Origin: Membranipora membranacea | Taxonomy: Eukaryota; Bryozoa; Gymnolaemata; Cheilostomatida; Membraniporidae | Length of the DNA: 64,000 bases | Assembly: GCA_914767715.1 (NCBI GenBank) | Contig: OU612071.1 | Location: forward strand, 3,534,001-3,598,000 | Reading direction: 5' to 3' | Shown: piece by piece, positions 7,961-52,915 of the stretch | How positions within the stretch are numbered: the stretch's first letter is position 1 | Layout: each line of letters opens with the position of its first letter | Notes under the pieces: generated by a model | Seen by the model: the letters and a program-made list of their open reading frames with translations, nothing else | What the model was told of the DNA's origin: nothing | The model's database searches: none | Made by a program: the position numbers and the translations under genes

Positions 7961-7974
7961 AGATTATTAAGGCG

Positions 7975-9177: not shown

Positions 9178-10258
9178 AATTACTTTATTACTGAGTTGTA
9201 ATATATACATTGATAAGAGAAACTATTTATTAAACTAAGTGTTCAATAATAGAAAGAAGAGCGTTCTCTTATTGAAGCGTTTGGCTCAATAAGTAGTGAA
9301 ATATTAACAACTTGTGTAAACCAGGAAGTCTGGTTTTTCCTTTTGCCTTGCTTTTGAATTTTCAGATAACTTAGACTAGCAGTTGTCTTCATCCGGATAT
9401 TTAGAAGACAACTTTGTTAGACTGTTAAGATAAATGTCAAAACTGATGGTAATTTGATGAATTGATTTCAGACAATAGAAAAATTGAAAAGGCCACTTTT
9501 ACACAAAAATATGATTAAGCGTTTTTGAAGGAAAATTGTTTGCTATAATGCCAGCGGTGCTGATATACTTGCATTCATGATAGTCATTCTATTCCCAGAA
9601 TTGGGTCTATTACAATTACAATAGTTTCATGATATATTTCAAGGATGGGTCTTAGGGTTGTCTAGGTTAACTTCCCAATATTGCATGAAAGATACCTAAG
9701 GCCAACAGATTGCTTTTTTGTATATTTAGTATACACAGCAGCTGAAAACTGTGAACGGGTGCATCATGGTACAACAGTCCTAATATCAGAATCAAGTTAG
9801 CTAAGCTGAGCTTGTCTTGTGGTCACATGACTATAAGACAACCAGGGAAACAATGCAGATAAATATCGTAATATTAAGAGATCAAAGTTCCATCTTGTTT
9901 GTAAGAGAGTTATCTGCTCTTATATAATAAGGAGATGATAATTTGTGTTGTATCATTCTACTCAGGAGACAGATTTTCTGTTCTATCATCTTACAGTTAG
10001 GCTTTTTGAAGTTGAGACTATAACCATGACAAGATGAATTTTCCAGCTTAGATGTGAGATATGAATTTTTTGTGTTGCATTTAAGATAAGATGTATTATG
10101 ATATGATATATATCATTTTTTTATTGCAGTAAATCAGCTATGTAATATTTAAATATTCATGATATAAATATGTACTAGCATGATATAGCAGCTATTGTGG
10201 ATCTGTGAAAACTTCAGGATGATGTTCTGTTAGATCTTCAGGGTGATGTTTGGTTCCT

Positions 10259-10649
10259 TTAGGGGTTAACACACTGAGCTCCCGCACATCCAGGGTCACA
10301 GTCATCGGGTGCAGTACCAGTACAGCAGCACTTACTTCCAGAGCAGGATCCCGTACAGTAACCTTTCACGCCACAAGAGACGTGACAGAAACCGTCAGAC
10401 CCTGGACAGACTGAGGATGAGGAGCACGCTACAATACAATAAAATACTAGTCAAGAAAACTGGCGTTTGAGGCAATATTCCAATCTGTCTACATATATTC
10501 TCAAGAGTAACAGCAAACATGTAAAGTGTGTTTGAGATATTGGGAACAAGTACTGAGCATAATAACTTACAAGCCGCTGTGGTGGAGCTACAGAACAAAC
10601 CAAGGCAGATAAATGCTATACTAAGGATCAGTGATTTGATGCTTGACAT
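10259..10649 (-). CDS. Secreted 12-cysteine peptide, copy A (CS-alpha-beta defensin-like)
   Basis: The coding sequence is 10649-10571 (signal exon) joined to 10428-10259, interrupted by a 142-bp GT-AG intron (10570-10429, phase 1). It encodes 82 residues: a 26-residue signal peptide ending in STTAA and a 56-residue mature part with 12 cysteines. Within it the spacing C-x6-C-x3-C-x9-C-x4-C-x-C matches the invertebrate CS-alpha-beta defensin scaffold. There are six further cysteines, including one that makes a CCC triplet and three in a C-terminal extension. The mature part is slightly acidic, unlike most cationic defensins. A non-coding exon 1 (about 11021-10994) is joined through intron 1 (10993-10690); the first ATG of the spliced message is the one used here. 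A polyadenylation signal reads TTTATT at 10120-10125. The signal differs from other copies (LILSI). A defence role is inferred; an inhibitor cystine knot is an alternative. Confidence 0.85.
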
Positions 10650-11044
10650 CGTGATAGAAGGTTGATCTATATGTCTCTTTGCAGATATGCTACGAATCAA
10701 AAGACCAATGAGATTTTTATTATATATATATATATATATATGTATGATGAGAGATCATGATGACTTTACCTGAGACCCTTGAGTGTTCAATGCAGGAATG
10801 ATAACCAAAACACAGTGCACAAACATATCCCATATTTCTTTATAGTCTATGCTACTAAGAGCTTGTACCCTTACAATACTATCATAACTCTGTGCTTTAC
10901 ATGGTGTATCATGGAAAAAGACTACCCCTATCAAATTTCATGAGATCAAATTAAATCAAATATTGTAAATTCAGATTTATTACAGACACTTACCTTCTTG
11001 AGATAGAGAATGTTTGTGATGTTGATGTCTGCAGAGTCTTGAGC

Positions 11045-11051
11045 TTTTATA
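11045..11051 (-). promoter_or_regulatory. TATA box of copy A
   Basis: TATAAAA on the minus strand, inside the CACTGTTATTTACTATAAAAGC block shared by copies A, B, C and E. Initiation is expected near 11021, giving a non-coding exon 1 of about 28 bases that ends in CAAGAAG before GTAAGTG. Confidence 0.75.
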
Positions 11052-13238
11052 GTAAATAACAGTGAAAACTGGTGTTAACGTGTCAAAACGTCACTCGTTT
11101 GTATTCTATTTAAGGTATCATAATGATGCATATTATCAAAGGCTTAAAGCGGGAGTACGGGTCAGATTCACTTTCTCTTGTCCCTATCCAGGTTGATAGA
11201 TCACCCGATTCTTAATACGTACATGTGCTCCAATTCGGCGCCAAATACATCATAACAATTTGTTTACATTTATAGGCAGGAATATGATGTCATAAGTAGG
11301 ACTCACATAAACAATTCCCTATCAATCAATAATGACTGATTTACATTTAGCGATATTTAGTATTTTTGAAAATCATTATAGCTACACACTCCTCAACCAT
11401 ATTTGACTCTGCTGATGTAGTTTAACCTAATTTTTCTTTTTTAAAAGAAGATAAGATGTCAAAAAGTGTAGGAATACAATAATCTTCAGTTCAGTTTATA
11501 GTTAAATTACAGCGTCACAATGTCTGTCAAAGCAGGTGCACTGCATGATATTGATTTACTAATGAATTATGAATCAATATATCATTTATCATCATGCTTT
11601 ACGCTATTAAATATGGCTCAATGTAGCTAAATGTCAAAAGAAAGTTGGCAGAATTAAAGATACAGTTTTTTTGGAAGAGTTTATAGCGGCCGGAATTCCA
11701 TTACTCACAACTAGATCACAGTGAAGTAAGTGAAAAAGGCCCTGATTACTGCAGGAGAGTTTCGAATCTCAAAGCATAGTGTTGGGGGTTAATCGGGTTA
11801 GAGGGGTAACAATGCGCTAGATGTTTAAGGACCAGTAAGTTGGTAGTATAAACCCATTCACGTGCAGTAGAGATAGACACATGGACGGACCGCACGAGAC
11901 CACTGGTCCGAAAAATCTCTCAGTGGCACATCTGAAGGAATTGCGCAGGACTAGGTATATATGAGATGTGAAATTCAACTACGTAATTATGAGGAAAATA
12001 TCACTGAGAACAATAATCAGTAAGGCAGACACAATATAGCACACTGGAATGGGGAGGGAGTAGATGGGCTGTGGAATAAGGACAGGTCTGTGTAGTCTAT
12101 TGGTGAAAAAACACTTCTTCACATCCGTCGGTGTTAAATAAGTCGCATAACAATTCTTGTTCCCATATTATTACTCCCCGCACAAGTTGACCACTGTATA
12201 TGGACTATTGAGTCTCTATAATTAATGCTGGATCTAAATTTCAGTTCCTATCGTGGACCGATTCATTATCGTCATACTGCACAGCAGTCCTGGTTGTTGC
12301 TCCAAGTCATCAGAAAAATGAATACACAAATTGAAGTTCTTTCAGCTCAATGACAATTATGAAAATGAAACCAAATTAGCACATCAAAATCATCGGCAGT
12401 AGAATTTTATGACACAGTTATGCAACCGATGGTTCATTATTGATTTTGTAGTGAATTGTAAATCAACTGGTCATCATTCATCACGCTGTATGCTACTAAG
12501 TACGGCTCAATGGAAGTTCCCACTTGGAAATTACCGTGATGTCATATGTTTTGGATGTAAATTTGAGCATAGCATATTGGTAAATGGAAGTCGCTTAACA
12601 TATTTTTGTCCATAATATTACTCCCCACATAAGTAAACCCCTGTAGGTGTACTAACAATTCTCTATAATGAATGCTGTACCTGAACTGCTCAACCTCTTT
12701 AAGTTTCATCATGTTTGTTTTTTTCAAGATCAAATTAAACATTTAAATCAAATAAAAAAAAACTGAATCTTATAAATCACGAAATGCCGCCATTCATATT
12801 CATTATCACTCTGTGTGAAAAAGCTCAGGTTTATTTATGATAAATATTCTAAACTTCAATAACATGAGCTGATCGATGTTACGTCAATTGATGCGGCGAG
12901 CTAATTATAACAGCAAAATATTTGTCTTGGTCAAGAATAGACTAGTCCTGCAGCTGAAGCACATGACTGTGTTGTTTTAATTGTGTGTTTTATGCTGAGT
13001 TGTGGTACGATTTGCTGGATTTTGCTTCATCATAATTTCGGAGGCTCAAAAGTCAGACTAGATATTGGACGGATGAAAAAGTGAAAGTATTTTGTAGCTA
13101 GTGTCATATGCCATTTATTGATCTTTTTTTGTCAACACATGATAGAAGAGTTATTACAATACAGATTCTATGACTGATCTATGATCTGCGTTATCGCCAC
13201 TAAATCATTATTAATGGATAATTAATGTCAAGCCTTAG

Positions 13239-13456
13239 GGCTGCAATCTACAAATCAAAGGCCAGACTATATGGTTGATATGATATTGAATGAATACAGA
13301 ATTTTGATATTTTTTGCTAACCCCATTATTTCTCTATGCTAAAGCCTAGTTAGTGTATCCATAATGGCTTTGTGTTCGCTAGTGCTGACACCGTATATTG
13401 TGCCAAAGTTTTATCTATGTAGTGATTTACATGCAGCTTAGCTATGTAAACAGCAT
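13239..13456. other. Linker at the inversion junction, shared with the host-gene intron
   Basis: About 220 bases match 52538-52759 closely (CCTTAGGGCTGCAATCTACA and following). At the right copy the first bases, CCTTAGGG, are the start of the Ig-like exon, followed by its splice acceptor and intron. The junction with the inverted half-unit therefore falls almost on that exon edge. Units 2, 3 and 4 lack the linker at their starts. It marks the switch from inverted to direct orientation. Confidence 0.8.
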
Positions 13457-15730
13457 AAATATACCATTTGTTTTAATATTTGTGAAAGATCAGTCTCTAA
13501 TTATACTTTGCGAAGCTAAATCCTACATCAAATAAAAGTTTGCACGTTGTAACAGAAATAACTAGGTTTGGTCTTCAGGTTATGATCCCAGCGTTGACTG
13601 ATTTGGACATTCTATATACCGTTGGAAAGCTGAGCTGAGCTACTGATCGATAATAGCTCATCAAAAACATGATTGGATTAAATTGCGTCACTTTATCGGA
13701 GAAATTAGGCAGAAGAGGCTGTTCTTAGCAAAGTGGATGGCTGCGCTACATTGATAAACAGCCAATTTGAGGGGCTTTTAAGGTGTTTTTCGGCATTCCG
13801 TGTGGCGCAATTCGAGGAAGACTAATACATAGTACCATATTCTGTTGGCCTTTCCTCTTTGTACTATGCTGAATCAAAGCGGCTTCGTATGTGAGAATTT
13901 TCAAAATAAACTTGTCTGGCCTTACTGCTGGACCTTTTGACAGCATGTTTGACGTTATTGATAATGGCGCAAAATGTATTCACCATTGATGGTCTAACCT
14001 GATATTGATACATTTGATATACTGCTGAAACTTGTGGTGTGTGTCATTTAAACAGCAATATAGTGGAAAAAAGGAAATAATTTGCCCTTTTTTATTCGAA
14101 CCGTTCCTAATCTTTGCTTCAAATTTCGTATTATATCATCAAAATAAAAATCTATTCATTTGCACACAGCGTGACCCCTTGACTTCAACCAGCGTGTATT
14201 GCCATTTTTGCACAAAACTACGTGGACCATTTTCAATCTAAGCCTGTGATTTATTTTCTAATGAAATGAACCTTCCTTTTGACTACAGAGCAGCTTCTTA
14301 ACAAGCTCTGTATGAAGTAACGGAGTCAGAATAGTAATCTGCAAAAAAACAGCACCTGTTCCCAACATTGGCCTAAAAATGATATGATAATAATTAAAAT
14401 GACATCAATTGAGTTGCCATTTTGACAAACTATAATGCGTAACCCCAACAATCATTATTGTTATTTTTGTAAAATTTGGCTCCTGTCCCTAATAATTGCC
14501 GAAATATGATTCATATCATTTATGGCACTAATTTCATTTTGACAGGTGTCACCATGATTATTATCTATAATGAAAATTGTGTTAGATACGGCAACCAAAA
14601 CTGGTGTGTTATGTGTCCTATTTTGAGCTGACAACAATAACCACTGCGTGGGCTTTCTGTTGTTGATTGCTGCTTTATTCATATTTCATTGAACCTGCTG
14701 AAAAGCTCAAGAAATAGAAATGTATAACAGGAAATCGTTCAAATGCAATTTGACACTGTTTATGTAAATCCTGTTCCTGTTTTTAATAGTTCCCAACAAC
14801 AAAGTGATTATAATTCAAGACTTTAACTGCACTTAATTTTTGTCAGGTTTAACTGTGACAAGCTTTTAACAATGATAAATGTCTTTTATGTTCTCTTTTG
14901 AGTACCATTTGTGGAAAAACAATGTATTATTTTTCTATCAAGTGTCTATTATTGCTCCTATTATTGCAATCGTCATCATCATAACCTGATCAAAAACCTC
15001 GTGGGTTGTTTTATGGCACTTCTGATCATGCCACGCACACTCATAAAAAAATATTACTTAGCTCTTAAATACACCTGATTGCCAGGCTGATCATTTGACT
15101 CTAATTAACTGTACAGCTCTTCTTTAGCTTGTTGGATGTAACTCTAGAATAGCAGTTTTCTCTAAATGATGCAAGATTGGCCCAGCCTCTAAGCACTCTC
15201 CATACTCTGTCGATCAGTGACACAAATATTGCATGTTCCATTGATGTGATTGAGTTTTAACAGATCAGTAGGGAAATTACAAAGCGTTATCTTTTACAGG
15301 TTCTTCAATATTTGTTGAAACTGAATCGCATCTTACGGCAAATATTTGATTCAAGTGTGAATTTGTTTTTGGGCCAGCTTTGCATGTAGCAGGCAAACAA
15401 CCTTGAGAGTAATTCAAAACAATAGGCGTGTTGCCATATGCGGGTATGTTTTCTAGGCCACGTGAGTTTTTATTCTAGGACAGGACAGACAGTGCCTCCA
15501 CTAGATCTACAGGTATGTTCACAAAACGACTTTGATTTTCACCCTGTCATACCAAAAGCCGCAAGCTAAATATACTTCCATGCTATGCTGTATGACATAT
15601 CATCATCAGGTCATGACCTGCAGATAGCTTTCACATAAACCTGTCTGGGATAATCCCTCGACAATATTGTGTGAACTACTACAGCTAATGACCTTCTAGG
15701 AAATTTCATAGTTTTGTTCTCATTAACAAT

Positions 15731-16290
15731 CAATAATAATAATAATAATAATAAAGTTTATTTGCGAAACGCTTAATAATATTTCTAAGTGTTATTACAT
15801 CAAAACCAATAAAAAAAAGGTGAAATAAAATGGATAAAATATGTGCATGAGGATAAATTAGAACATAATTCTGATACTGCTATATAAATTTATAAAATAA
15901 AATCTAATTACTTAAAGTACAACCTAAATAAATATGTTTTAGTAGCGGACTTAAAACCGGTAAGGCTCGGCAACAGCTGCAAATCAGGGGGCAGGGAATT
16001 CCAGAGGGTTACGAGTGATGATGGTAGGGATTTTCCACCGAATGTGGCCAAGTTGGAGGTGTGAAGGGATGCGACAATGATTTTTTAGCTGCTTCTAGTG
16101 ACACGGCGAGGTTCAGGAATGTAGAATTGATTGATGAAATAAGCATTTATTATCACAGTATTAAGATAAATGCTCATCATAAAACTTCGAAGCTCACTGT
16201 CGGACAGCTGGTCCAGCACCAATCTGTTTTGTTAGGGCTGTAGTTTATGAAAAATGGTGGGGGAGGCAAATGTCTGTGGCGAGTTCAAGG
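15731..16290 (-). mobile_element. LINE 3' end relic with RT tail and (TTA)n terminus, unit 1
   Basis: Read on the minus strand, a frame ending in TAA at 15908-15910 encodes a reverse-transcriptase C-terminus. It contains LWNSLPPDLQLLPSL and FKSATKTYLFRLYFK, the standard WNSLP...FK tail of CR1/L2/Jockey-like elements. The frame continues rightwards to about 16290 with in-frame stops, for example at 16085-16087. A short 3' UTR ends in (TTA)n, seen as AATAATAAT at 15732-15754, a typical LINE terminus. It differs from the LINE at 2.9-6.5 kb. This is the longest of the four copies; the other units keep shorter pieces. Confidence 0.8.
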
Positions 16291-16675
16291 CATCACCAGT
16301 GAGCTCCTACCCGAGCAATTCAAACATATAAAAAGGAAATTGACATCCCAGATGATCGGATTCTGACATTATATGTTCGATTATAGTGTTTTAAGGCCAC
16401 TGTATTTTACTTTCTAGGTTATGGGAAAAGAATTGGCACCTATCCTTGAAATTGACAAAGAGAAAACATGATCAACACATAAAATATCATATTTCATTCT
16501 TACATTATAGCATATTTTTCATCTATATTCAAATATCCGTGTCATTTTCAGGTTGCTATTATCTTTTTCTGTCCAACTTGCTTCATTGTAAGCAAGTTTT
16601 CTTCACGTGTAAATAGAGAAGATAAAACTATCAAATTTACTTTCGGCAGTTCTGTTTGGTTATATCATACAAACG

Positions 16676-16870
16676 TACATGGTGCTGCTTATACCGAAAG
16701 GCTGGGATAGACCGCTAGCACAGAGCAGTCTGGGTGGCCAGAACAAGTAATAAAAACCACCTTAGCCCTTTGTCCTTCAAACCCAATATCCGCAACAAAC
16801 TCCTCTGATATGTACACAGCAACTCCACCATGAAACCGAGATCTGCTGAACCAGTTTTAACCATAATATA
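16676..16870 (-). mobile_element. LINE endonuclease fragment, unit 1
   Basis: The minus strand encodes RFHGGxAVYISEEFV-like sequence, matching the RxxxHGGGVAIYI block of LINE endonucleases. It is clearest in unit 4 (44587-44847) and present in unit 3 (35395-35610). It lies upstream, in minus-strand terms, of the RT tail, so both may derive from one element with its middle deleted. The fragment is short and decayed. Confidence 0.5.
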
Positions 16871-17267
16871 GTTCTCATTAAAATTGAGGTATGCTTCTGG
16901 AAGAGTAGTTTATAATAGATTTCACTACTTCGAGTGAAAAAAATAGCCAAATTACCCTGTTAAATTGTCCCATCACTAAACAGAGTATTGTTGCATGTCA
17001 ACGTAATCTTCTTTGGTTGCAATTAAATTTTTTGTTCTGTATAGAAACAATCTGTTTCATTCAAAAATATCTAATTGTAAATTAAATCTGAGACAGAACC
17101 GTAATTAAAGTTCCCCTTTGCTGGCAATTCTCTTTGCTGTGCAATCAAGTTATGTTATATTTGCAGCCAAGGTCAATTGATGTGAAACATAGCTAAGACT
17201 AATCTTCAGTAGGGTGATGCCAAGATAGGCCAGAAAAATTACCTCAAACTCAAGTTGAAACAGTCGA

Positions 17268-17480
17268 CTTTTCATTAGAGTCTATGCAACTGAAAACCAC
17301 TACATTATCAATACTTTTGTCGTTCTGTGCTTTACACTCTGCTTCATGAATCAATACTACCACTATCGAATTAGATGAGATCAAATGAAATGTAGCAACC
17401 AAATCAAATTTGATCAGATCGGACTTACCACAATAACTTACCTCCTTGACCTAGAGAATGTATGTAACTGTAATCTTAGG
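17268..17480 (-). pseudogene. Relic of peptide gene exon 1 and intron 1, unit 1
   Basis: The minus strand carries ACATTCTCTAGGTCAAGGAG before GTAAG, the counterpart of ACATTCTCTATCTCAAGAAG before GTAAG at the exon 1 donor of the live copies. Leftwards it follows intron 1 of the live gene (TCTGTGCTTTACA, GAGATCAAAT, AGTCTATGC), with many substitutions. No promoter, signal exon or mature exon is left. It is orientated opposite to copy B. Confidence 0.75.
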
Positions 17481-20400
17481 CAAATTGCATCATGTTTGTT
17501 TTTTCACAATCAAATTAAAACTGAGTCTTTTAAATTACGTTATGACGTACATACAGTCATTCAAATTTATTCTCATGTATTCAAAAGATAAAAATATCCA
17601 GGCTAATTTGAATCTAATAGATTATGCCTCGACATACGTGGGCTGATTAATGTGGCATTGTTTGATATTGGCAAGCAAATTATAACATCAAAATTTTCTC
17701 CTTGTCAGAAATAGACTAGTTATGTAGCTAAAGCGCATGACTTGTCGGTTTTAATCGATGGTCTTCTGCCAAGTTGCTGGATTTTGCATCATCATAATTG
17801 AGGAGTGTCAAAACAGAAAGGATATTGGGAGAATAGAAGTCACAAACAATTTTGAAGCAAGTTGGCGTTGGCGTTGTCATTTATTGCTGATAGCGGAATT
17901 GATGATCTGTTTTAATCGCAACATTGTGATAGAAGAGTGATTTTATTATACAGATCCTAAGACTGATCTATGCTGTCTTTTTTGCTTGTATTTTGCCTCA
18001 TCATGATTGAGGAAGGTCAATATTCGGACAAGGTCATGGGTGAGAAAAAAAGTAAAACTATCGGCAAATTTCATTATTTGAAAATGATAGAAGAACGGCA
18101 AATTGCCATTTCTGTTTGACCATGACATGGTGATGAAATAGTTATTATTATACAGATCCTGTGGCTGATTTATTCTCTTTACCATTGCCGCTAGATGTTA
18201 AATGTTAATAAACCAATATATAGCAGTACCATGACAATGCAAAAGTGCAGTTTTGAAAATATAAATTTATAGACGGCTGATAGAAGCCTGATAGACAACA
18301 TCACGCACCAGCGTATGCTTTAGCTTAATCATCGCGATCGTTTAATGACCTCCCCAGTGTTATTATAGAATTGATGAAAGTCAATTTTCCATGATACTTC
18401 GTTAGAAGAGGATGGCGAAATTTCTTGTGAAAATTGTTCATGATTAATAATCAATGAAAAACCCCTCAATAATGTCATAAGTCCAGTATATACAGTGTTA
18501 ACTAATGACAGTCCTGTTCTACATGATTTTCAAAGTGATAGTATTTGATAGTTTCTGCTGTTATACTAGAAATAAAATACATGGAGTTTCAACGGTCAAT
18601 AGAAAATGGATACAGCCGGGGTAGTAATATGTTTTATGATGGATAAAAGTTTCAAGTCAAGTATTGACAATGACGAAAGAAAATAAAATTATATTTGTTG
18701 CCAGGCTTGTGAAAAACATAGTACATATTATTATGTATATTATTAGATTATATTTGATAGGCTTGACATTAATTATCAATTAATAATGATTTAGTGGCGA
18801 TAACGCAGATCATAGATCAGTCATAGAATCTGTATTGTAATAACTCTTCTTAATAAAAAAAGATCAATAAATGGCATTTGACACTTGCTACAAAATACTT
18901 TCACTTTTCCATCTGTCCAATATATAGTCTGACTATTGAGCCTCCTCAATTATGATGAAGCAAAATCCAGCAAATTGTACCACAATCAGCATAAAACACA
19001 CAATTAAAACAACACAGTCATGTGCTTCAGCTGCAGGACTACTCTATTCTTGACCAAGACAAATATTTAGCTGTTATAATTAGCTCGCCGTATCAATTGA
19101 CGTAACATCGATCAGCTCATGTCTTTTGAAGTTTAGAATATTTATCCTAAATAAACCTGAGCTTTTTCACACGGAGTGATAATGAATATGAATAGCGGTA
19201 TGTCGTTATTTATAAGATTCAGTTTTTATTTGATTTGATTTAAATGTTTAATTTGATCTTGAAAAAAACAAACATGATGAAACTTAAAGAGGTTGAGCAG
19301 TTCAGGTACAGCATTCATTATAGAGAATTGTTAGTACACCTACAGGGGTTTACTTATGTGGGGAGTAATATTATGGACCAAAAAAATTGTATGCGACTTT
19401 CTTTTACCAATATGCTATGCTCAAATTTACATCCAAAACATATGACATCACGGTAATTACCAAGTGGGAAATTCCACTGAGCCGTACTTAGTAGCATACA
19501 GCATGATGAATGATGACCAGTTGATTTACAATTCACTACAAAATCAATAATGAACCATGGGTTGCATAACTGTGTCATAAAATTCTACTGCCGATAATTT
19601 TGATGTGCTAATTTGGTTTCACTTTCATAATTGTCATTGAGCTGAAAGAACTTCAATTTGTGAATTTATTTTTCTGATGACTTGGAGCAACAACCAGGAG
19701 CTGCTGTGCAGTATGACGATAATGAATCGGTCCACGATAGGAACTGAAATTCAGATCAAGCATTAATTATAGAGACTTGGTAGTCCATCTACAGTGGTCA
19801 AATTGTGCGGGGAGTAATAATATGGGAACAAGAATTGTTATGCGACTTAATCAACACTGACGGATGTGAAGAAGTGTTTTTTCACCAATAGACTACACAG
19901 AGCTCCCTGACCTGTCCTTATACCACAGCCCATCTACTCCCTCCCCATTCCAGTGTGCTATTTTGTGTCTGCCTTACTGATTATTGTTCTCTGTGATATT
20001 TTCCTCTTAATTACGTAGTTGAATTTCACATCTCATATATACCTAGTCCTGCGCAATTCCTTCAGATGTGCCACTGAGAGATTTTTCAGACCAGTAGTCT
20101 CGTGCGGTCCGTCCATGAGTCTATCTCTACTGCATGTGAATGGGTTTATACTACCATCTTACTGATCCTTAAACACCTAGAGCATTGTTATCCCTCTAAC
20201 CCGATTAACCCCCAACACTATGCTTTGAGATTCGAAACTCTCCTGCTGTAATCAGGGCCTTTTTCACGTACTTCACTGTGATCTAGTTGTGAGTCGTGGA
20301 ATTCCGGCCGCTATAAACTGTTCCAAAAAACTGTATCTTTAATTCTGCCATCTTTGAGCCATATTTAATAGCGTAAAGCATGATGATAAATGATATATTG

Positions 20401-20801
20401 ATTCATAATTCATAATAAAATCAATATCATGCAGTGCACCTGCTTTGACAGACATTGTGACAGCTATAATGTGACTATAAACTGAACTGAAGATTATTGT
20501 ATTCCTACACTTTTTTACATCTAATTTTCTTTTAAAAAAGAAAAAATTAGGTTAAACTACATCAGCAGAGTCAAATATGGTTGAGGAGTGCGTAGCTATA
20601 ATGATTTTCAAAAATACTAAATATCGCTAAATGTAAATCAGTCATTATTGATTGATAGGGAATTGTTTATGAGAGTCCTACTTATGACATGATATTCCTG
20701 CCTATAAATGTAAACAAATTGTTATGATGTATTTGGCGCCGAATTGGAGCACATGTACGTATTAAGAATCGGGTGATCTATCAACCTGGATAGGGACGGG
20801 A

Positions 20802-39674: not shown

Positions 39675-42600
39675 AGGAACCAAACATCACCCTGAAGATC
39701 TAACAGAACATCATCCTGAAGTTTTCACAGATCCACAATAGCTGCTATATCATGCTAGTACCTATTTATATCTTGAATATTTAAATATTACATAGCTGAT
39801 TTACTGCAATAAAAAATGATATATATCATATCATAATACATCTAATCTTAAATGCAACACAAAAAAATCATATCTCACATCTAAGCTGGAAAATTCATCT
39901 TGTCATGGTTATAGTCTCAACTTCAAAAAGCCTAACTGTAAGATGATAGAACAGAAAATCTCTCTCCTGAGTAGAATGATACAACACAAATTATCATCTC
40001 CTTATTATATAAGAGCAGATAACTCTCTTACAAACAAGATGGAACTTTGATCTCTTAATATTACGATATTTATCTGCATTGTTTCCCTAGTTGTCTTATA
40101 GTCATGTGACCACAAGACAAGCACAGCTTAGCTAACTTGATTCTGATATTAGGACTGTTGTACCATGATGCACCCGTTCACAGTTTTCAGCTGCTGTGTA
40201 TACTAAACATACAAAAAAAAGCAATCTGTTGGCCTTAGGTATTCTTCATGCAATATTGGGAAGTTAAACTAGACAACCCTAAGACCCCTCTTTGAAATAA
40301 ATCATGAAACTATTGTAATTGTAATAGACCCAATTCTGGGAATAGAATGACTATCATGAATGCAAGTATATCAGCACCGCTGGCATTAAAACAAACAATT
40401 TTCCTTCAAAAACGCTTAATCATATTATTGTGTAAAAGTGGCCTTTTCAATATTTCTATTGTCTGAAATCAATTCATCAAATCACCATCAGATTGACATT
40501 TATCTTAACAGTCTAACAAAGTTGTCTTCTAAATATCCGGAGGAAGACAACTGCTAGTCTAAGTTATCCGAAAATTCAAAAGCAAGGCAAAAGGAAAAAC
40601 CAGACTTCTTGGTTTACACAAGTTGTTAATATTTCACTACTTATTGAGCCAAATGCTTCAATAAGAGAACGTTCTTCTTTCAATTATTGAACACTTAGTT
40701 TAATAAATAGTTTCTCTAATCAATGTATATATTGCAACTCAGTAATAAAGTAAATGTAACATCTCATCCATCATTGAAAATATATAACCAGATGGCCACT
40801 GTTTGCATCACTCAGCAGATAGGAGCACACATTAACCATTGACCGAACATAGCTGATGCTACTGTCTCTTATCAGTGTAGTTAACAATACACTTCATCTC
40901 CTGGATATAAATTAGATTGCTTGTATAACGAGCGACAGTGGATAGAAAGGGTAGGATGTGTCTCCATAACAGATTAGGGTTATATCATATTGTATTATGT
41001 CTAGAATAGGTTACTGAACAAAAAGGGCCTGGTCCCTGAAATGTGCCTCAGTTACAAACCAATGATACCAAAAGGGCACCACTGCAGCATTCAGCTTTAA
41101 TCTGCCCTCAGAACTGTGGGAACTTGGAAATGACAGCAGCATTGCATTGTGGGTTACCATTAAACAAGTGGTTCATTTTTACAACATGCCTGCACAGGTA
41201 CAACCACATCTACACACTATGTCTGCTTGTATGTTGCCAATGTAATGCAATTTGGTAAGCACAACCACAAGATTGTTGTACTATCAAGAAAACCTTTAGG
41301 TAAGAGGATATTGATAAGTAGTCTTTATTGAATGGATTCGGTAAATCGAATCATGAAGCTTACAATATTTTATGAGTGGTATTGAGCCAAAGAATTTCTT
41401 TGATTTTGAAGGTGGGTAATAAAATAAGAGGATGTGTGAGCTATGTTACTGAGTAAGATAGTACACATTATTAGGCAATACAGTGAGGAAGCAGGCAGGT
41501 CTAGTGAGCACACGTTGGGAGCACAACCCCCTTCTTCTCAAAGAACTGAGCCTAATCAATTAATTGTGTAAAAATTATCATTAAGTGTCTGACTTTTTTG
41601 ACATGGTTTTCAGGGTGGTAAATTATGGGCTTGCTCAAACTCAACTTGATTAAATTTTAAAGTGCATAAGTTATTTAGCCTTGAGCTTGTTATTCGCAAG
41701 AATCTGTTTTCTCGTCATATTTCTTGTTGTGAACACATGAAGAAGTCAGCATCAGCTCAGCATAAGCTTACCTTTATCTTAGTCGGATAGACCAGCCGAC
41801 ATGATGGGAAAACAGAATAGCATCAAATGACTGCTGAGTTTGGTTACACATAAACTCAAATTAGCCAGAACATAGAATAATGGACTCCAATTAGCGTTCT
41901 GTTACATGAAACATATGAAAGAGAATAATGTGAAAAAAAAATATACCATTTGTTTTAATATAAGGGAACGATCAGTCTCTAATTATACTTTGCGAAGCTA
42001 AATCCTACATCAAATAAAAGTTTGCACGTTGTAACAGAAATACCTAGGTTCGGTCTTAAGGTTATTATACCAGCGTTGACCGATTTGGACATTCTATATA
42101 CCGTTGGAAAGCTGCTGAGCTACTGATCGCTATCAGCTCAACAAAAACATGATTGGATTCCATTGCGTCGATTTATCAGAGAAATGAGGCCGAAGGGGCT
42201 GTTTTTAGCAAAGTGGATGGCTGCGCTACATTGATAAACAGCCAATTTGAGGGGCTTTTTATGGTGTTTTTTGGCATTCCGTGTGGCGCAATTCGAGGAA
42301 GAATAATACATAGAACCATATTCAGTTGGCCTTTCCTCTTTGTACTATGCTTAATCAAAGCGGCTTCGTATGTGAGAATTTTCAAAATAAACTTGTCTGG
42401 CCTTAGTGCTGGACCTTTTGACAGCATGTTTGACATTATTGATAATGGCGCAACATGTATTCACCTTTGATGGTCTAACCTGATATTGATACATATGATA
42501 TACTGCTGAAATTTGTGGTGTGTCTCATTTAAACAGCAATATATTTGAAAAATGCAAAATAATTGGCCCTTTTTTATTCGAACTGTTCCTAATCGTTGCT

Positions 42601-44200
42601 TCAAATTTCGTATTATATCATCAAATTAAAAATCCATTCATTTGCAAACAGCGTGACCCCTTGATTGCAACCAGCGTGTCTTGCCATTTTTGCACATAAC
42701 TACGAGGACCATTTTCAATCTAAGCCTGTGATTTATTTTCTAATGAATTGAACCTTCCTTTTGACTACAGAGCAGCTTCTTAACAAGCTCTGTATGAAGT
42801 AACAGAGTCAGAATAGTAATCTGCAAAAAAACGACACCTGTTCCTAACATAAGCCTAAAAATGATATGATAATAATTAAAATGACATAAATTGAGTTTGC
42901 ATTTTGACAAACTATAACGGGTAACCCCAATAATCATGATTGTTATTTTTGTAAAATTTGGCTCCTGTCCCGAATAATTGTCGAAATATGATTCGTATCA
43001 TTTATGGCACTAATTTTATTTTGACAGGTGTCACCATGATTATTATCTATAATGAAAATTGTGTTAGATACGGCAACCAAAACTGGTGTGTTATATGTCC
43101 TATTTTGAGCTGACAACAATAAGCACTGCGTGGGCTTTCTGTTGTTGATTGCTGCTTTATTCATATTTCATTGAACCTGCAGAAAAGCTCAAGAAATAGA
43201 AATGTATAACAGGAGATTGTTCAAATGCAATTTGACACTGTTTATGTAAATCCTGTTCCTGTATTTAATAGTTCCCAAAAATAAAGTGATTATAATTCAA
43301 GACCTAAACTGCACTTAATTTTTGTCAGGTTTAACTGTGAAAAGCTTTTAACAATGATGAATGTCTTTTATGTTCTGTTTTGAGTACCATTTGTGAAAAT
43401 AATGTATTATTTTTCTATCAAGTGTCTTTAATTGCTTCTATTATTGCAATCGTCATTATCATAACCTGATCAAAAACCTCGTTGGTTGTTTTATGGCACT
43501 TCTGATTATGCCACGCCCACTCATAAAAAAATATTACTTTGGTCTTAAATACACCTGATCGCCAGCCTGATCATTTGACTCTAATTAACTGTACAGCTCT
43601 TCTTTAGCTTGTGTGATGTAACTCTAGAATAGCAGTTTTCTCTAATTGATGCAAGATTGGCCCAGCCTCTAAGCACTCTCCACACCCTGTCGATCAGTGA
43701 CTCAAAAGTTGCAAGTTCTGTTGATGTGATTGAGTTTTAACAGATCAGTAGGGAAATTACAAAGCATCATCTTTCACAGGTTCTTCAATATTTGTTGAAG
43801 CTGAATCCCATCTTACGGCAAATATTTGATTCAAGTGTGAATTTGTTTTTGGACCATCTTTGCATGTAGCAGGCAAACAACCTTGATGGTAATTCAAAGC
43901 AATAGGCGTGTTGCCATATGCGGGTATGTTTTCTAGGCCACATGAGTTTTTATTCTAGGACAGGACAGACAGTGCCTCCCCTTGATCTACAGGTATGTTG
44001 CACAAAACGACTTTGATTTTCATCCTGTCATACCAAAAGCCGCAAGCTAAATATACTTCCATGCTATGCTGTATGACATATAATCATCAGGTCATGAACT
44101 GCAGATAGCTTTCACATAAACTTGTCTGGGATAATCCCTCGACGATATTGTGTGAACTACTACAGCTAATGATCTTCTAGAAATTTCATGGTTCTCATTA

Positions 44201-44847
44201 ACAATTAATAATAATAATAATAATAGAGTTTATTTGTGAAACGCTTAATAAAATTGCAGAGCAAAAATCTCTAAGCGTTATTACATTAAAACCAATAAGA
44301 TAAAGGTGAAACAAAATGGATAAAATATGTGCATGAGGATAAAATTAAAACATAATTCTGATACTGCTATATGAATTTATAAAATAAAATCTAATTAATT
44401 AAAGTACAATCTAAATAAATATGTTTTAGTAGCGGACTTAAAACCAGTTAGGCTCAGCAACAGCTGCAAATCAATGGGCAGGGAATTCCAGAGGGTTACG
44501 AACGATGATGGTAGAGAAGGTAAAACTATCAAATTCAGTTTCAGCAGTTCTGTTTGGTTATATCATACAAACGTACATGCTGCTGCTTATACCGAAAGGC
44601 TGGGGTAGACCGCTAGCACAGAACAGTCTGGGTGGCCAGAATAAGTAATAAAAACCACCTTAGCCCTTTGTCCTTCAAACCGAATATCCACAACAAACTC
44701 CTCTGATATGTACACAGCAATTCCACCATGAAACCGAGATCTGCTGAACCAGTTTAACCATAATATAGTTCTCATTGTAATTAAGGTATGCCTCTGAAGG
44801 AGTAGTTTATAATATATTTCACTACTTTGAGTGAAAAAAATAGCCAA
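44201..44847 (-). mobile_element. LINE relic, RT tail plus endonuclease fragment, unit 4
   Basis: The (TTA)n tail, 3' UTR and WNSLP-type RT tail (to about 44515) are retained. Then a deletion of about 590 bp relative to unit 1 joins GATGATGGTA to GAGAAGG. The endonuclease fragment follows (44587-44847, minus), reading RSRFHGGIAVYISEEFV. Confidence 0.7.
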
Positions 44848-45634
44848 ATTACCCTGTTAAGTTGTCCCATCACTAAACAGAGTATTGTTGCATGTCAACG
44901 TAATCTTATTTGGTTGCAATTAAAATTTTTGTTCTGTATAGAAACTATCTGCTTCATTCAAAAATATCTGATTGTAAATGAAATCTGAGACAGAACCGTA
45001 ATTAAAGTTCCCCTTTGCTGGCAATTCTCTTTGCTGTGCAATCAAGTTATGTTATATTTGCAGCCAAGGTCAATTGATGTGAAACATAGCTAAGACTAAT
45101 CTTCAGTAGGGAGATGCCAAGATAGGCGAGAAAAATTACCTCAAACTCAAGTTGAAACAGTGGACTTTTCTAAAAACTGAAAACTAAAAAAGTCTTCAAT
45201 GGCAGAGAAAGATGTCTCTGCTTGCTCAGAGTCTTTTATCAACTAATTTTATGTGAAATACATTACCAATCCTCCTCCTTACTCTCATCCTTGTTAAATC
45301 AATATGAATTGGCTTCATTGCCAGTTAGATCTTTATCGCTCTGTGATTTGAATATTTACCCTGCGATAAAAGTCTATCTGGCTTTGTTAATTGTAATTAA
45401 GGGATTAAAAAAATTATTGTATAGAAGTTTCGACTCATGGTAAATATATCATATTATAACAAAGTCACATAGGTAAAATTTTGAAACTATCGGGTTAAAA
45501 GTTCTCAAGAAACAGGCCTGTCAACCTTAGATTTTAAATTCTGCAAATTGGAAAAATGTCCAGATAATACTTTGTTGCGCTGGGCCTGCAAATGTATATA
45601 TGTTAATATATTTGTTACTGGATTTCGGTTCACA

Positions 45635-45875
45635 AATACACAGCCACTTTTCATTAGAGTCTATGCAACTGAAAACCACTACATTATCAATACTTTTGTC
45701 GTTCTGTGCTTTACACTCTGCTTCATGAATCAATACTACCACTATCGAATTAGATGAGATCAAATGAAATGTAGCAACCAAATCAAATTTGATCAAATCG
45801 GACTTACCACAATAACTAACCTCCTTGACCTAAAGAATGTATGTAAATGTAATCTTAGGCAAATTGCATCATGTT
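45635..45875 (-). pseudogene. Relic of peptide gene exon 1 and intron 1, unit 4
   Basis: Homologous to the other relics, but the donor has changed from GTAAG to GTTAG at 45820. The matching intron frame (45796-45527, minus) reads CKAQNDKSIDNVVVFSCID, aligning with intron 1 of the live gene. Confidence 0.72.
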
Positions 45876-48800
45876 TGTTTTTTCACAATCAAATTAAAAC
45901 TGAGTCTTTTAAATAACGTTATGACGTACATACAGTCATTCAAATTTATTCTCACGTATTCAAAAGATAAAAATATCCAGGCTAATTTGAATCTAATAGA
46001 TTATGCCTCGACATACGTGGGCTGATTAATGTGGCATTGTTTGATATTGGCAAGCAAATTATAACATCAAAATTTTCTCCTTGTCAGAAATAGACTAGTT
46101 ATGTAGCTAAAGCGCATGACTTGTCGGTTTCAATCGATGGTCTTCTGCCAAGTTGCTGGATTTTGCATCATCATAATTGAGGAGTGTCAAAACAGAAAGG
46201 ATATTGGGAGAATAGAAGTCACAAACAATTTTGAAGCAAGTTGGCGTTGGCGTTGTCATTTATTGCTGATAGAGGAATTGATGATCTGTTTTAATCGCAA
46301 CATTGTGATAGAAGAGTGATTTTAATATACAGATCCTAAGACTGATCTATGCTGTCTTTTTTGCTTGTATTTTGCCTCATCATGATTGAGGAAGGTCAAT
46401 AGTCGGACAAGGTCATGGGTGAGAAAAAAAGTAAAACTATCGGCAAATTTCATTATTTGAAAATGATAGAAGAACGGCTATTTGCCATTTCTGTTTGACC
46501 ATGACATGGTGATGAAATAGTTATTATTATACAGATCCTGTGGCTGATTTATTCTCTTTACCATTGCCGCTAGATGTTAAATGTTAATAAACCAATACCA
46601 TACCATGACAATGCAAAAGTGCAGTTTTGAAAATATAAATTTATAGACGGCTGATAGACGGCTGATAGACGACATCACGCACCAGCGTATGCTTTAGCTT
46701 AATCATCGCGATCGTTTAATGACCTCCCCAGTGTTATTATAGAATTGATGAAAGTCAATTTTCCATGATACTTCGTTAGAAGAGGATGGCGAAATTTCTT
46801 GTGAAAATTGTTCATGAATAATAATCAATGAAAAACCCCTCAATAATGTCATAAGTCCAGTATGTACAGTGTTAACTAATGACAGTCCTGTTCTACATGA
46901 TTTTCAAAGTGATAGTATTTGATAGTTTCTGCTGTTATACTAGAAATAAAATACATGGAGTTTCAACGGTCAATAGAAAATGGATACGGCCGGGGTAGTA
47001 TCATGTTTTATGATGGATAAAAGTTTCAAGTCAAGTATTGACAATGACGAAAGAAAATAAAATTATATTTGTTGCCAGGCTTGTGAAAAACATACATATT
47101 ATTATGTATATTATTAGATTATATTTGATAGGCTTGACATTAATTATCCATTAATAATGATTTAGTGCCGATAACGCAGATCATAGATCAGTCATAGAAT
47201 CTGTATTGTAATAACTCTTCTTAATAAAAAAAGATCAATAAATGGCATTTGACACTTGCTACAAAATACTTTCACTTTTCCATCTGTCCAATATATAGTC
47301 TGACTATTGAGCCTCCTCAATTATGATGAAGCAAAATCCAGCAAATTGTACCACAACTCAGCATAAAACACACAATTAAAACAACACAGTCATGTGCTTC
47401 GGCTGCAGGACTAGTCTATTCTTGACCAAGACAAATATTTTGCTGTTATGATTAGCTTGCCGTATCAATTGACGTAACATCGATCAGCTCATGTCTTTTG
47501 AAGTTTAGAATATTTATCCTAAATAAACCTGAGCTTTTTCACACGGAGTGATAATGAATATGAATAGCGGTATGTCGTGATTAATAAGATTCAGTTTTTA
47601 TTTGATTTGATTTAAATGTTTAATTTGATCTTGAAAAAAACAAACATGATGAAACTTAAAGAGGTTGAGCAGTTCAGGTACAGCATTCATTATAGAGAAT
47701 TGTTAGTACACCTACAGGGGTTTACTTATGTGGGGAGTAATATTATGGACCAAAAAAATTTTATGCGACTTTCTTTTACCAATATGCTATGCTCAAATTT
47801 ACATCCAAAAGATATGACATCACGGTAATTACCCAGTGGGAAATTCCACTGAGCGTACTTAGTAGCATACAGCATGATGAATGATGACCAGTTGATTTAC
47901 AATTCACTCCAAAATCAATAATGAACCATGGGTTGCATAACTGTGTCATAAAATTCTACTGCCGATGATTTTGATGTGCTAATTTGGTTTCATTTTCATA
48001 ATTGTCATTGAGCTGAAAGAACTTCGATTTGTGAATTCGTTTTTCTGATGACTTGGAGCAACAACCAGGAGCTGCTGTGCAGTATGACGATAATGAATCT
48101 GACCACGATAGGAACTGAAATTCAGATCCAGCATTAATTATAGAGACTCGGTAGTCCATCTACAGTGGTCAACTTGCGCGGGGAGTAATAATATGGGAAC
48201 AAGAATTGTTATGCGATTTATTTAACACCGACGAATGTGAAGAAATGTTTTTTCACCAATAGACTACACAGAGCTCCCTGACCTGTCCTTATACCACAGC
48301 CCATCTACTCCCTCCCTATTCCAGTGTGCTATTTTGTGTCTGCCTTACTGATTATTGTTCTCTGTGATATTTTCCTCTTAATTACGTAGTTGAAGTTCAC
48401 ATCTAATATATACCTAGTCCTGCGCAATTCCTTCAGATGTGCCACTAAGAGATTTTTCAGACCAGTAGTCTCTTGCGGTCCGTCCATGAGTCTATCTCTA
48501 CTGCATGTGAATGGGTTTATACTACCAACTTACTGATCCTTAAACACCTAGAGCATTGTTATCCCTCTAACCCGATTAACCCCCAACACTATGCTTTGAG
48601 ATTCGAAACTCTCCTGCTGTAATCAGGGCCTTTTTCACGTACTTCACTGTGATCTAGTTGTGAGTCGTGGAATTCCGGCCGCTATAAACTGTTCCAAAAA
48701 ACTGTATCTTTAATTCTGCCATCTTTGAGCCATATTTAATAGCGTAAAGCATGATGATAAATGATATATTGATTCATAATTCATTAGAAAATCAATATCA

Positions 48801-49167
48801 TGCAGTGCACCTGCTTTGACAGACATTGTGACAGCTATAATTTAACTATAAACTGAACTGAAGATTATTGTATTCCTACTTTTTTACATCTAATTTTCTT
48901 TTAAAAAAGAAAAATTAGGTTAAACTACATCAGCAGAGTCAAATATGGTTGAGGAGTGTGTAGCTATAATGATTTTCAAAAATATTAAACATCGCTAAAT
49001 GTAAATCAGTCATTATTGATTGATAGGGAATTGTTTATGAGAGTCCTACTTATGACATCATATTCCTGCCTATAAATGTAAACAAATTGTTATGATGTAT
49101 TTGGCGCCGAATTGGAGCACATGTACGTAATAAGAATCGGGTGATCTATCAACCTGGATAGGGACGG

Positions 49168-49300
49168 GAGAAAGTGAATCTGACCCGTACTCCCTCTTTA
49201 AGCCTTTGTTAACATGCAATATTATGATACCTTAAATAGAATACCAACCAGTGACGTTTTGACACGTTAACACCAGTTTTCACTGTTATTTACTATAAAA
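49168..49300 (+). promoter_or_regulatory. Promoter region of copy E
   Basis: TATAAAA at 49294-49300, with the same upstream motif order as copy B. Exon 1 ends at 49351 before GTAAGTATC. Confidence 0.6.
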
Positions 49301-49685
49301 GCTCAAGACTCTGCAGACATCAACATCACAAACATTCTCTATCTCAAGAAGGTAAGTATCTGTAATAAATCTGAATTTACAATATTAGATATAGTTTGAT
49401 CTCATTAAATCTGATAGGGGTAGTCTTTTTCCATGATACACCATGTAAAGCACAGAATGATGTTAGTATTGTAAGGGTACAAGCTCTTAGTAGCATAGAC
49501 TATAAAGAAATAAGGGGTATGTTTGTGCACTGTATTTTGGTTATCATTCCTGCATTGAACACTCAAGGGTCTCAGGTAAAGTCATCATGATCTCTCATCA
49601 TACATATATATATAATAAAAATCTCATTGGTCGTTTGTTTTGTAGCATATCTGCAAAGAGTTTTATAGATCAACCTTCTATCACG

Positions 49686-50076
49686 ATGTCGAGCATCAAA
49701 TCACTGATCCTTATTCTAGCATTTATCTGCCTTGGTTTGTTCTGCAGCTCCACCACAGCGGCTTGTAAGTTATTATGCTCAGTACTTGTTCCCAATATCT
49801 CAAACACACTTTACATGTTTGCTGTTACTCTTGAGAATATATGTAGACAGATTGGAATATTGCCTCAAACGCCACTTTTCTTGACTAGTATTTCATTGTA
49901 TTGTAGCGTGCTCCTCATCCTCAGTCTGTCCAGGGTCTGATGGCTTCTGTCACGTCTCTTGTGGCGTGAAAGGTTACTGTACGGGATCCTGCTCTGGAAG
50001 TAAGTGCTGCTGTACTGGTACTGCACCCGATGACTGTGACCCTGGATGTGCGGGAGCTCAGTGTGTTAACCCCTAA
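49686..50076 (+). CDS. Secreted 12-cysteine peptide, copy E (CS-alpha-beta defensin-like)
   Basis: The coding sequence is 49686-49764 joined to 49907-50076, with intron 2 at 49765-49906 (142 bp). The leader is exon 1 (to 49351), intron 1 (49352-49645) and 5' UTR from 49646. AATAAA is at 50210-50215. The protein is the same as copy B, including the LILIL signal core. Exon 3 has two adjacent third-position changes relative to the other copies (GAC-GGT to GAT-GGC), both silent. Intron 2 has two substitutions. All signals are intact, so the copy should be functional. Confidence 0.88.
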
Positions 50077-52353
50077 AGGAGCCAAACATCACCCTGAAGA
50101 TCTAACAGAACATCATCCTGAAGTTTTCACAGATCCACAATAGCTGCTATATCATGCTAGTACCTATTTATATCATGAATATTTAAATATTACATAGCTG
50201 ATTTACTGCAATAAAAAATGATATATATCATATCATAATACATCTAATCTTAAATGCAACACAAAAAAATCATATCTCACATCTAAGCTGGAAAATTCAT
50301 CTTGTCATGGTTATAGTCTCAACTTCAAAAAACCTAACTGTAAGATGATAGAACAGAAAATCTCTCTCCTGAGTAGAATGGTACAACACAAATTATCATC
50401 TCCTTATTATATAAGAGCAGATAACTCTCTTACAAACAAGATGGAACTTCGATATCTTAATATTACGATATTTATCTGCATTGTTTTCCTGGTTGTCTTA
50501 TAGTCATGTGACCACAAGACAAGCACAACTCAGCTAACTTGATTCTGATATTAGGACTGTTGTACCATGATGCACCCGCTCATAGTTTTCAGCTGCTGTG
50601 TATACTAAATATAACAAAAAAGAAGCAATCTGTTGGCCTTAGGTATGGGAAGTTAAACTAGACAACCCTAAGACCCCTCTTTGAAATAAATCATTAAACT
50701 ATTGTAATTGTAATAGACCCAATTCTGGGAATAGAATGACTATCATGAATGCAAGTATATAAGCACCGCTGGCATCATAACAAACAATTTTCCTTCTAAA
50801 ACGCTTAATCATATTATTGTGTAAAAGTGGCCTTTTCAATTTTTCTATTGTCGGAAATCAATTCATCAAATTACCATCAGTTTTGACATTTATCTTAACA
50901 GTCTAACAAAGCTGTCTTCTAAATATCCGGAGGAAGACAACTGCTAGTCTAAGTTATCCGAAAATTCAAAAGCAAAGCAAAAGGAAAAACCAGACTTCTT
51001 GGTTTACACAAGTTGTTAATATTTCACTACTTATTGAGCCAAATGCTTCAATAAGAGAACGTTCTTCTTACTATTATTGAACACTTAGTTTAATAAATAG
51101 TTTCTCTTATCAACGTATATATTGCAACTCAGTAATAAAGTAAATGTAACATCTCATCCATCATTGAAAACAAATAACCAGATGGCCACTGTTTGCATCA
51201 CTCAGCAGATAGGAGCACACATTAACCATTGACCGAACATAGCTGATGCTACTGTCTCTTATCAGTGTAGTTAACAATACACTTCATCTCCTGGATATAA
51301 ATTAGATTGCTTGTATAACGAGCGACAGTGGATAGAAAGGGTAGGATGTGTCTCCATAACAGATTAGGGTTATATCATATTGTATTATGTCTAGAAAAGG
51401 TAACTGAACAAAAAGGGCCTGGTCCCTGAAATGTGCCTCAGTTACAAACCAATGATACCAAAAGGGCACCACTGCAGCATTCAGCTTTAATCTGCCCTCA
51501 GAACTGTGGGAACTTGGAAATGACAGCAGCATTGCATTGTGGGTTACCATTAAACAAGTGGTTCATTTTTACAACATGCCTGCACAGGTACAACCACATC
51601 TACACACTATGTCTGCTTGTATGTTGCCAATGTAATGCAATTTGGTAAGCACAACCACAAGATTGTTGTACTATCAAGAAAACCTTTAGGTAAGAGGATA
51701 TTGATAAGTAGTCTTTATTGAATGGATTCGGTAAATCGAATCATGAAGCTTACAATATTTTATGAGTGGTATTGAGCCAAAGAATTTCTTTGATTTTGAA
51801 GGTTGGTAATAAAATAAGAAGATGTGTGAGCATTGTTACTGAGTAAGATAGTACACATTATTAGGCAATACAGTGAAGAAGCAGGCAGGTCTACTGAGCC
51901 CACGTTGGGAGCACAACCCCCTTCTTCTCAAAGAACTGAGCCTAATCAATTAATTGTGTAAAAATTATCATTAAGTGTCTGAATTTTTTGACATGGCTTT
52001 CAGGGTGGTTAATTATGGGCTTGCTCAAACTCAACTTGATTAAATATTAAACTGCCTCAGTTATTTAGCCTTGAGCTTGTTATTCGCAACAGTCTGTTTT
52101 CTCGTCATATTTCTTGTTGTGAAGACATGAAGAAGTCAGCATCAGTTCAGCATAAGCTTACCTTTATCTTAGTCGGATAGACTAGCCGACATGATGGGAA
52201 AACAGAATAGCATCAAATGACTGCTGAGTTTGGTTACACATAAACTCAAATTAGCCAGAACATAGAATAATGGACTCCAATTAGCGTTCTGTTACATGAA
52301 ACATATGAAAGAAAATAAAGTGAATTTGAGAAGACGAAATTAAAATAACTCAC

Positions 52354-52544
52354 GGCAGAATTCTACTGATGACACAATATTCAGAATTGGGTATCTGCTC
52401 TCTTCAAGGAGGCTGTCTGTTAGTCTCTGATTCAAGTCTTTTGGTATTTCTGTAACGGTGCCGTCAAATGAGACATCAGTAGACCAGGTTACCGCCAGAG
52501 TATCACTGTAACAGCTCAGCTTAGCCTGAGAGCCAACCTTAGGG
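52354..52544 (-). CDS. Ig-like domain exon
   Basis: On the minus strand a 191-bp open segment is bounded by an acceptor (TGTAGATTGCAG, ending at 52545) and a donor (GTGAGT, starting at 52353). It reads VGSQAKLSCYSDTLAVTWS...YPILNIVSSVEFC. The pattern of cysteine, then tryptophan about ten residues on, then a hydrophobic LNI strand and a terminal cysteine, fits an immunoglobulin fold. The exon begins with one base of a split codon and ends with one extra base. It lies at the junction of unit 4 and the partial unit 5, and its intron is duplicated at 13239-13456. Which gene it belongs to is unclear: the next minus-strand coding segment upstream ends in a stop at 52942. Confidence 0.6.
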
Positions 52545-52915
52545 CTGCAATCTACAAATCAAAGGCCAGACTATATGGTTGATATGATATTGAATAAATA
52601 CAGCATTTTGATATTTTTTGCAAACCCCATTATTTTTCTCTACTAAAGCCTAGTTAGAGTATCCATAATGGCTTTGCGTTCACTAGTGCTGACACCGTAT
52701 ATTGTGCCAAAGGTTTATCTATGTAGTGGTTTACATGCAGCATAACTATGTAAACAGCATAAATATACCATCTGTTGTAATATTAGGGAACGATCAGTCA
52801 CTAATTATACTTTGCGAAGCTAAATCCTACATCAAATAAAAGTTTGCACGTTGTAACAGACATAACTAGGTTTGGTCTTAAGGTTATTATACCAGCGTTG
52901 ACTGATTTCGACATT
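52545..52915 (+). repeat. Host intron and partial unit 5
   Basis: Bases 52545-52759 repeat the linker at 13245-13456. From AAATATACC at 52760 to about 52915 the sequence follows the start of the amplicon unit, and then similarity ends. This is the right boundary of the amplified region, only about 27 bases before the stop of the next coding segment. Confidence 0.85.

Follow-up and report, generated by a model that had tools for sequence, protein, structure and literature searches.

A 64,000-nucleotide stretch of Membranipora membranacea DNA (contig OU612071.1, positions 3,534,001 to 3,598,000 of the forward strand), hereafter the window, contains an array of long repeats built around a gene for one small cysteine-rich peptide. 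On balance, and at somewhat better than even confidence, we favour the reading that this tandem, partly inverted array serves the dosage of a secreted peptide, one with a CS-alpha-beta-like core and a role in defence. The array itself is present in the sequence, and comparison of the window with itself resolved one inverted partial unit and four direct units at 9174-52324:

9174-13235, minus strand: U0, partial unit in inverted orientation, gene copy complete
13236-23924, plus strand: U1, first direct unit, 10689 bp
23925-33000, plus strand: U2, second direct unit, 9076 bp
33001-41938, plus strand: U3, third direct unit, 8938 bp, gene truncated at its 5′ end
41939-52324, plus strand: U4, fourth direct unit, 10386 bp

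This layout agrees with the original prediction of four direct units of about 9-10.5 kb plus an inverted half-unit, the direct units being 8.9 to 10.7 kb long. Their pairwise substitution divergence is only 2.35-3.92%, so their likeness is far beyond chance. U0 aligns over ~4.08 kb to U1, U2 and U4 at 94.1-95.7% and to U3 as three shorter pieces, and the first 219 bases of U1 have no counterpart in U2, U3 or U4. Five gene copies had been predicted, and tblastn found the cysteine-rich exon at full length at five places, with all 54 compared residues identical in each; nine weaker matches elsewhere, spanning 5-34 residues at E 0.009 to 7.9, were left out of the copy count.

The exon model was built from splice and polyadenylation signals only, and both the exon 1 start and the splicing throughout are predictions. 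In order, an intact gene has a TATA promoter, an exon of 5′ untranslated region (UTR), a signal-peptide exon and a single exon for the mature peptide. The copies are as follows:

29953-30882, plus strand: U2 gene, TATA box (TATAAAA) at 29953 and AATAAA at 30877
~29983-30010, plus strand: U2 exon 1 (start guessed), followed by GTAAGT and intron 1 at 30011-30335, from splice signals
30336-30431, plus strand: U2 exon 2 (ATG at 30353; signal peptide by eye), followed by GTAAGT, from splice signals
30432-30573, plus strand: U2 intron 2 (142 bases), followed by the coding part of exon 3 at 30574-30743, ending at the stop codon, from splice signals
10259-10666, minus strand: U0 gene, exon 2 at 10666-10571 (ATG at 10649) and exon 3 at 10428-10259, predicted from splice signals; exon 1 ends at 10994, TATA box near 11051
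21301-21708, plus strand: U1 gene, exon 2 at 21301-21396 (ATG at 21318) and exon 3 at 21539-21708; TATA box near 20926
49669-50076, plus strand: U4 gene, exon 2 at 49669-49764 (ATG at 49686) and exon 3 at 49907-50076; exon 1 ends at 49351, TATA box near 49294
39310-39674, plus strand: U3 gene remnant, comprising an intact exon 3 at 39505-39674 preceded by intron 2 and the 3′ portion of exon 2

The U1 exon 1 donor was taken from the alignment, as one exon substitution hid its match to the search string. U0, U1 and U4 carry the same promoter, splice and polyadenylation signals as U2, leaving four of the five predicted genes complete. In U3 a 492-bp deletion removed the TATA box and promoter, exon 1, intron 1 and the normal ATG, and the earlier expectation of a three-exon gene in every copy therefore holds for U0, U1, U2 and U4 and fails for U3. 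Exon 3 has a second acceptor 18 bases downstream in the same phase, use of which would drop six residues including one cysteine. We prefer the upstream acceptor because it is preceded by a better pyrimidine tract and leaves an even cysteine count (12).

The predicted precursor is 82 residues long and its mature form 56, of which 12 are cysteines (21%). The product had been described as small, secreted and cysteine-rich, and a signal peptide recognised by eye, the cysteine content and a predominance of synonymous change bear this out. The exon 3 translation (55 residues) is identical in all five copies, as is the mature peptide, giving the several copies of the same product looked for in a dosage array. 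Since the mature peptide is invariant, we read the array as serving dosage rather than diversification: additional copies would probably yield more of the product, not new versions of it, and dosage appears the likeliest benefit. Across all copies the coding part has eight variable sites, six synonymous and two replacement, both of the latter in the signal peptide. Sites that tell the copies apart lie, in U2 coordinates, at 30358, 30381, 30383, 30412, 30427, 30575, 30608 and 30611. At a synonymous opportunity of ~29% (kappa 4), the binomial probability of at least six of eight being synonymous is 0.009, and it is 0.024 for the mature part, where all three changes are synonymous; these are small numbers.

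Counting sites only where at least four copies aligned, variability was 1/28 in exon 1, 3/170 in exon 3, 4/103 in the promoter, 26/317 in intron 1, and 158/2090 and 73/928 in the upstream and downstream flanks, respectively. Of the overlapping 170-base segments, 184/3879 were as invariant as exon 3, all of them overlapping the gene (0/2749 outside it), and likeness between copies is highest over intron 2, exon 3 and the 3′ UTR. The direct units are mosaics. When the unit is divided into nine 1-kb bins, the nearest neighbour of U4 is U1 in five and either U2 or U3 in four, namely the first three bins and a later one; U1 and U4 also share a 721-bp segment that U2 and U3 lack. Taken together, the peak of likeness over intron 2, exon 3 and the 3′ UTR and the mosaic units point to homogenisation by recombination plus protein-level constraint. 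We infer that unequal crossing over and gene conversion among the ~9-kb repeats would change copy number and homogenise the gene, that purifying selection would hold the product constant, and that with a constant product copy number would set the amount of one peptide. The original prediction offered selection for dosage or a recombination-prone locus; both are supported and they are not alternatives. Mosaic units, an inverted unit and older inverted remnants speak for recombination and the invariant mature peptide in 5/5 copies for dosage, which may itself have been under selection.

The observations that weigh against this reading concern either the identity of the copies or the class of the peptide. 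As to identity, intron 2 (3/142) and the 3′ UTR (3/157) match exon 3 in uniformity, and the coding part of exon 2, varying at 5/79 sites, is not as uniform as exon 3. Because of this pattern, a conversion tract is likely at least part of the cause of the identity and could explain much of it. Concerted evolution was also proposed earlier for the Nv1 toxin cluster of Nematostella vectensis, and the evidence for it was found to be confounded by the authors of PMC9842752. It is possible, if rather unlikely, that the array is neutral, a repeat-rich locus amplified by recombination in which the peptide gene is a passenger and identity comes from recent gene conversion. The uniform intron and 3′ UTR beside a more variable exon 2 would fit this, as would the inverted unit, the inverted remnants, the mosaic units and the already broken U3, but the changes in the coding part are mostly synonymous (6/8, and 3/3 in the mature part), and promoter, splice sites and polyadenylation signal have been kept in four of the five copies. 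The alternatives considered here address different, overlapping questions, and their probabilities do not sum to one.

As to class, the cysteines of the 56-residue mature form are at positions 2, 8, 15, 19, 25, 29, 34, 35, 36, 44, 48 and 53, and from residue 8 they form a core of C-x6-C-x3-C-x9-C-x4-C-x-C with a GxC gamma-core at its fourth cysteine (Gly-Ser-Cys, mature residues 27-29). The CS-alpha-beta consensus given in section 2.1 of PMC3210614 is C-X(3,18)-C-X3-C-X(7,9)-[GS]-X-C-X(4,13)-C-X-C, and the mature peptide satisfies it. Composition shuffles also fit this loose consensus in 3764/100000 cases, so the match is weak alone. The exact 6-3-9-4-1 spacing with an extra cysteine in the x9 stretch arose in 171/300000 shuffles, although this comparison was picked after the sequence was seen and the shuffle figures therefore flatter the fit. 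In the PDB, the precursor had eight matches at E up to 10 (best E 0.019) and the mature form had ten, the last two being porcine spasmolytic proteins. All eight of the former and the first eight of the latter belong to the CS-alpha-beta class, in which two pairs are variant forms, one pair of a single defensin and the other of nasonin.

Searches with four of the seven control sequences generated (one reversed, one fully shuffled and two shuffled around fixed cysteines) gave 5, 11, 3 and 1 PDB matches, respectively. The cysteine-kept shuffles matched granulins and one immunoglobulin-like protein and no CS-alpha-beta peptide, which suggests that residues other than the cysteines contribute to the CS-alpha-beta matches. 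The reversed control matched superoxide dismutases and one scorpion toxin (E 2.1), and the full shuffle matched phospholipases A2 to E 0.035 and one homoaconitase. Because the phospholipase A2 matches reach this value, an E of ~0.02 is not significant at such a composition, and no sequence or profile match to a CS-alpha-beta member was significant. Pfam scans of the precursor and of the mature form gave no match, and the core alone matched PF24552 (Defensin-like) at E 0.21 with a score of 12.1, below the cut-off of 27 bits. NCBIfam gave no match to the precursor. Two AlphaFold2 models made without relatives were poor (mean predicted local distance difference test scores of 56.1 and 57.2), and both low-confidence models have strands and lack the expected helix in the core. 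A search of ~5.8 billion proteins gave one candidate and none with E up to 1. None of 381 pattern stretches in GTDB genomes and none of 58 in viral contigs was confirmed, results that say little as these are by description prokaryote and viral sequence. Finally, the mature peptide contains 2 K, 1 H and 4 D and no R or E; with its cysteines taken as free, it has a calculated pI (isoelectric point) of 4.56 and a net charge of about -2.6 at pH 7, unlike cationic antimicrobial peptides.

These points bear on whether the peptide has another fold, be it a knottin, a granulin-like or a new 12-cysteine fold, with the CS-alpha-beta register a coincidence of cysteine density, which we consider unlikely. 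A cysteine content of 21%, the frequency with which shuffles fit the loose consensus, the poor models with no core helix, the additional cysteine within the CxC and three more in the C-terminal tail, and the acidity all favour such a fold. Set against it are the rarity of the exact spacing among shuffles and the mature-form matches, 8/10 of which are of the CS-alpha-beta class while the four controls matched mostly other classes. The original prediction did not recognise the family; this stands in so far as no single database match is significant, and the cysteine register narrows the choice to the CS-alpha-beta (defensin/scorpion-toxin-like) group. It is quite improbable that some of the copies arose in assembly from divergent haplotypes placed head to tail. 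The unit divergence of 2.4-3.9% is within the allelic range of some marine invertebrates, but two haplotypes of one gene account for two copies and not five, and more than two would be needed for five copies of which four, the direct units, each have a different set of gaps of at least 50 bases and one is inverted.

Returning to a CS-alpha-beta-like core, the closest comparison is with the ASABF-type peptide of the sponge Suberites domuncula, as given in PMC3210614. Its precursor is 83 residues against 82 here, and its cysteines at 23, 30, 34, 44, 49 and 51, plus one at 39, give a 6-3-9-4-1 core spacing (read off the published positions) equal to that of our peptide, with the further cysteine inside the x9 stretch at 39 there and at 25 here. 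The S. domuncula peptide has 8 cysteines and a mature pI of 9.24, against 12 cysteines and a pI of 4.56 here, and two residues separate its CxC from the next cysteine, against seven. An extra cysteine within the CxC and a three-cysteine tail further distinguish our peptide. As marks of an ASABF we took eight cysteines, with two residues between the CxC and the last of them as in S. domuncula, and a cationic mature peptide with a pI above 8; the S. domuncula and nematode members are described as cationic, and PMC3210614 also gives a Lubomirskia peptide 4 cysteines and a pI of 7.86. Our peptide departs from these marks in where its last cysteine lies and in its charge, and we therefore file it as CS-alpha-beta-like and not as an ASABF. 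According to PMC5116183, the CS-alpha-beta superfamily has a ten-cysteine reference array and allows 4-12 cysteines, and the core can be placed, by our own alignment, on C2, C3, C4, C5, C6, C8 and C9, with the GxC at C6. In that numbering a helix and two strands are expected to be held by C2-C6, C3-C8 and C4-C9. The peptide has no significant sequence match to a named member, and its assignment to the fold is tentative. A CS-alpha-beta-like core with an extra C-terminal cysteine tail would make this a host-defence-type secreted peptide, and by analogy with CS-alpha-beta peptides its job is likely defence, antimicrobial or deterrent.

Two other systems resemble the array in its arrangement. In the Nv1 cluster, too, a gene for a small secreted cysteine-rich peptide is repeated in tandem and dosage has been proposed, and its transcripts are near-identical, 14/18 copies being 99% alike; it belongs to another peptide family, and its copy number was measured in individuals as opposed to one assembly here (PMC9842752). 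The CRP-I genes of Mytilus are also clustered cysteine-rich peptide genes with a UTR-only first exon and the mature peptide in the last exon, and their clusters contain pseudogenes, as U3 is a broken copy here (PMC10138031). They differ in having four exons, against three, and a knottin array, and their copies diversify, with some identical neighbours, whereas the five copies here encode one mature peptide. In open-licence literature, searched as titles and abstract openings with no more than 300 papers ranked for each query, no such array was described in a sponge.

Three further stretches are related to the units:

26970-27197, minus strand: decayed inverted relative, in U2, of the exon 1/intron 1 stretch (228 columns, 66% identity to 29987-30200, plus strand)
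95-912, minus strand: inverted fragment of the early unit part, in two pieces with 90.0-94.6% identity to all four direct units
52537-52915, plus strand: fragment like the start of U1 (13233-13611), 379 bp, 93.7%

Equivalents of the decayed relative are present in U1, U3 and U4, and an old inverted duplication lies within U1 (17508-17862 and 18883-19235); these internal inverted duplications are ~66-67% identical. We also considered whether each unit carries another intact gene on its other strand and rejected this, as tblastn found no sixth full-length cysteine-rich exon. The fragments at 95-912 and 52537-52915 leave the array without clean ends. As the first of them matches the early unit part in inverted orientation, the minus-strand part of the array is likely to extend leftwards out of the window, with a retrotransposon and minisatellites breaking it up between 2931 and 8284.

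In all five copies the signal-peptide frame stays open through intron 2, and a protein made with the intron retained would end in a hydrophobic C-terminus. Of the intron's three variable sites, two alter a residue (V/L and L/S, in U4 in each case), and a V/M difference occurs in U3 shortly after the intron ends; the replacements give no sign of protein constraint in that frame, and we regard the open intron as chance and rejected an intron-retention isoform. NF-kB-like sites comprise one GGGAAATTC, which precedes the stop codon by ~2.2 kb in U1, U2 and U4 and by 1.7 kb in U3 and is absent from U0, and a GAAGTTTTC in the 3′ UTR of all five copies; they were given no weight. Elsewhere in the units, open frames overlap on both strands at 24140-24454 (plus) and 24166-24447 (minus) with equivalents in other units. 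Among frames of at least 80 codons, the plus type is in U2 and U4 and the minus type in U2, U3 and U4. The plus frame had no Pfam match, and conservation in this region does not clearly exceed that of the adjoining sequence.

Outside the array, a non-LTR (long terminal repeat) retrotransposon lies in several open pieces at 2931-6509 on the minus strand. Pfam identified its reverse transcriptase (E 3.3e-24), with an endonuclease just below the cut-off (E 9e-05) and an RRM-like piece below it (E 0.021), and the reverse transcriptase has two relatives in short ENA contigs, 89-91% identical across roughly two thirds of it. Of 1720 matches 120 were listed, and the three of these that carry an organism name are from animals (a beetle, a frog and a gorgonian). 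The minisatellites, at 7813-8284 between retrotransposon and array, have a 40-base unit repeated 3.5 times and a 59-base unit repeated 5.3 times. On the far side, at 52945-54507 on the minus strand, are open pieces with a beta-propeller look (NHL-like by eye) and a Thr-rich stretch. Three of these pieces had no Pfam match, and the piece at 54136-54507 had one weak PDB match (3hrp, E 0.28) and no homologue in the homologue search. Rfam gave no match at the gathering threshold over the whole window.

If our reading of a dosage array for a defence-type peptide is true, an acidic 12-cysteine variant would join the defensin-like superfamily. The array would also be a clear example of copy number serving dose, with an identical product, separate promoters, one lost copy and mosaic units.

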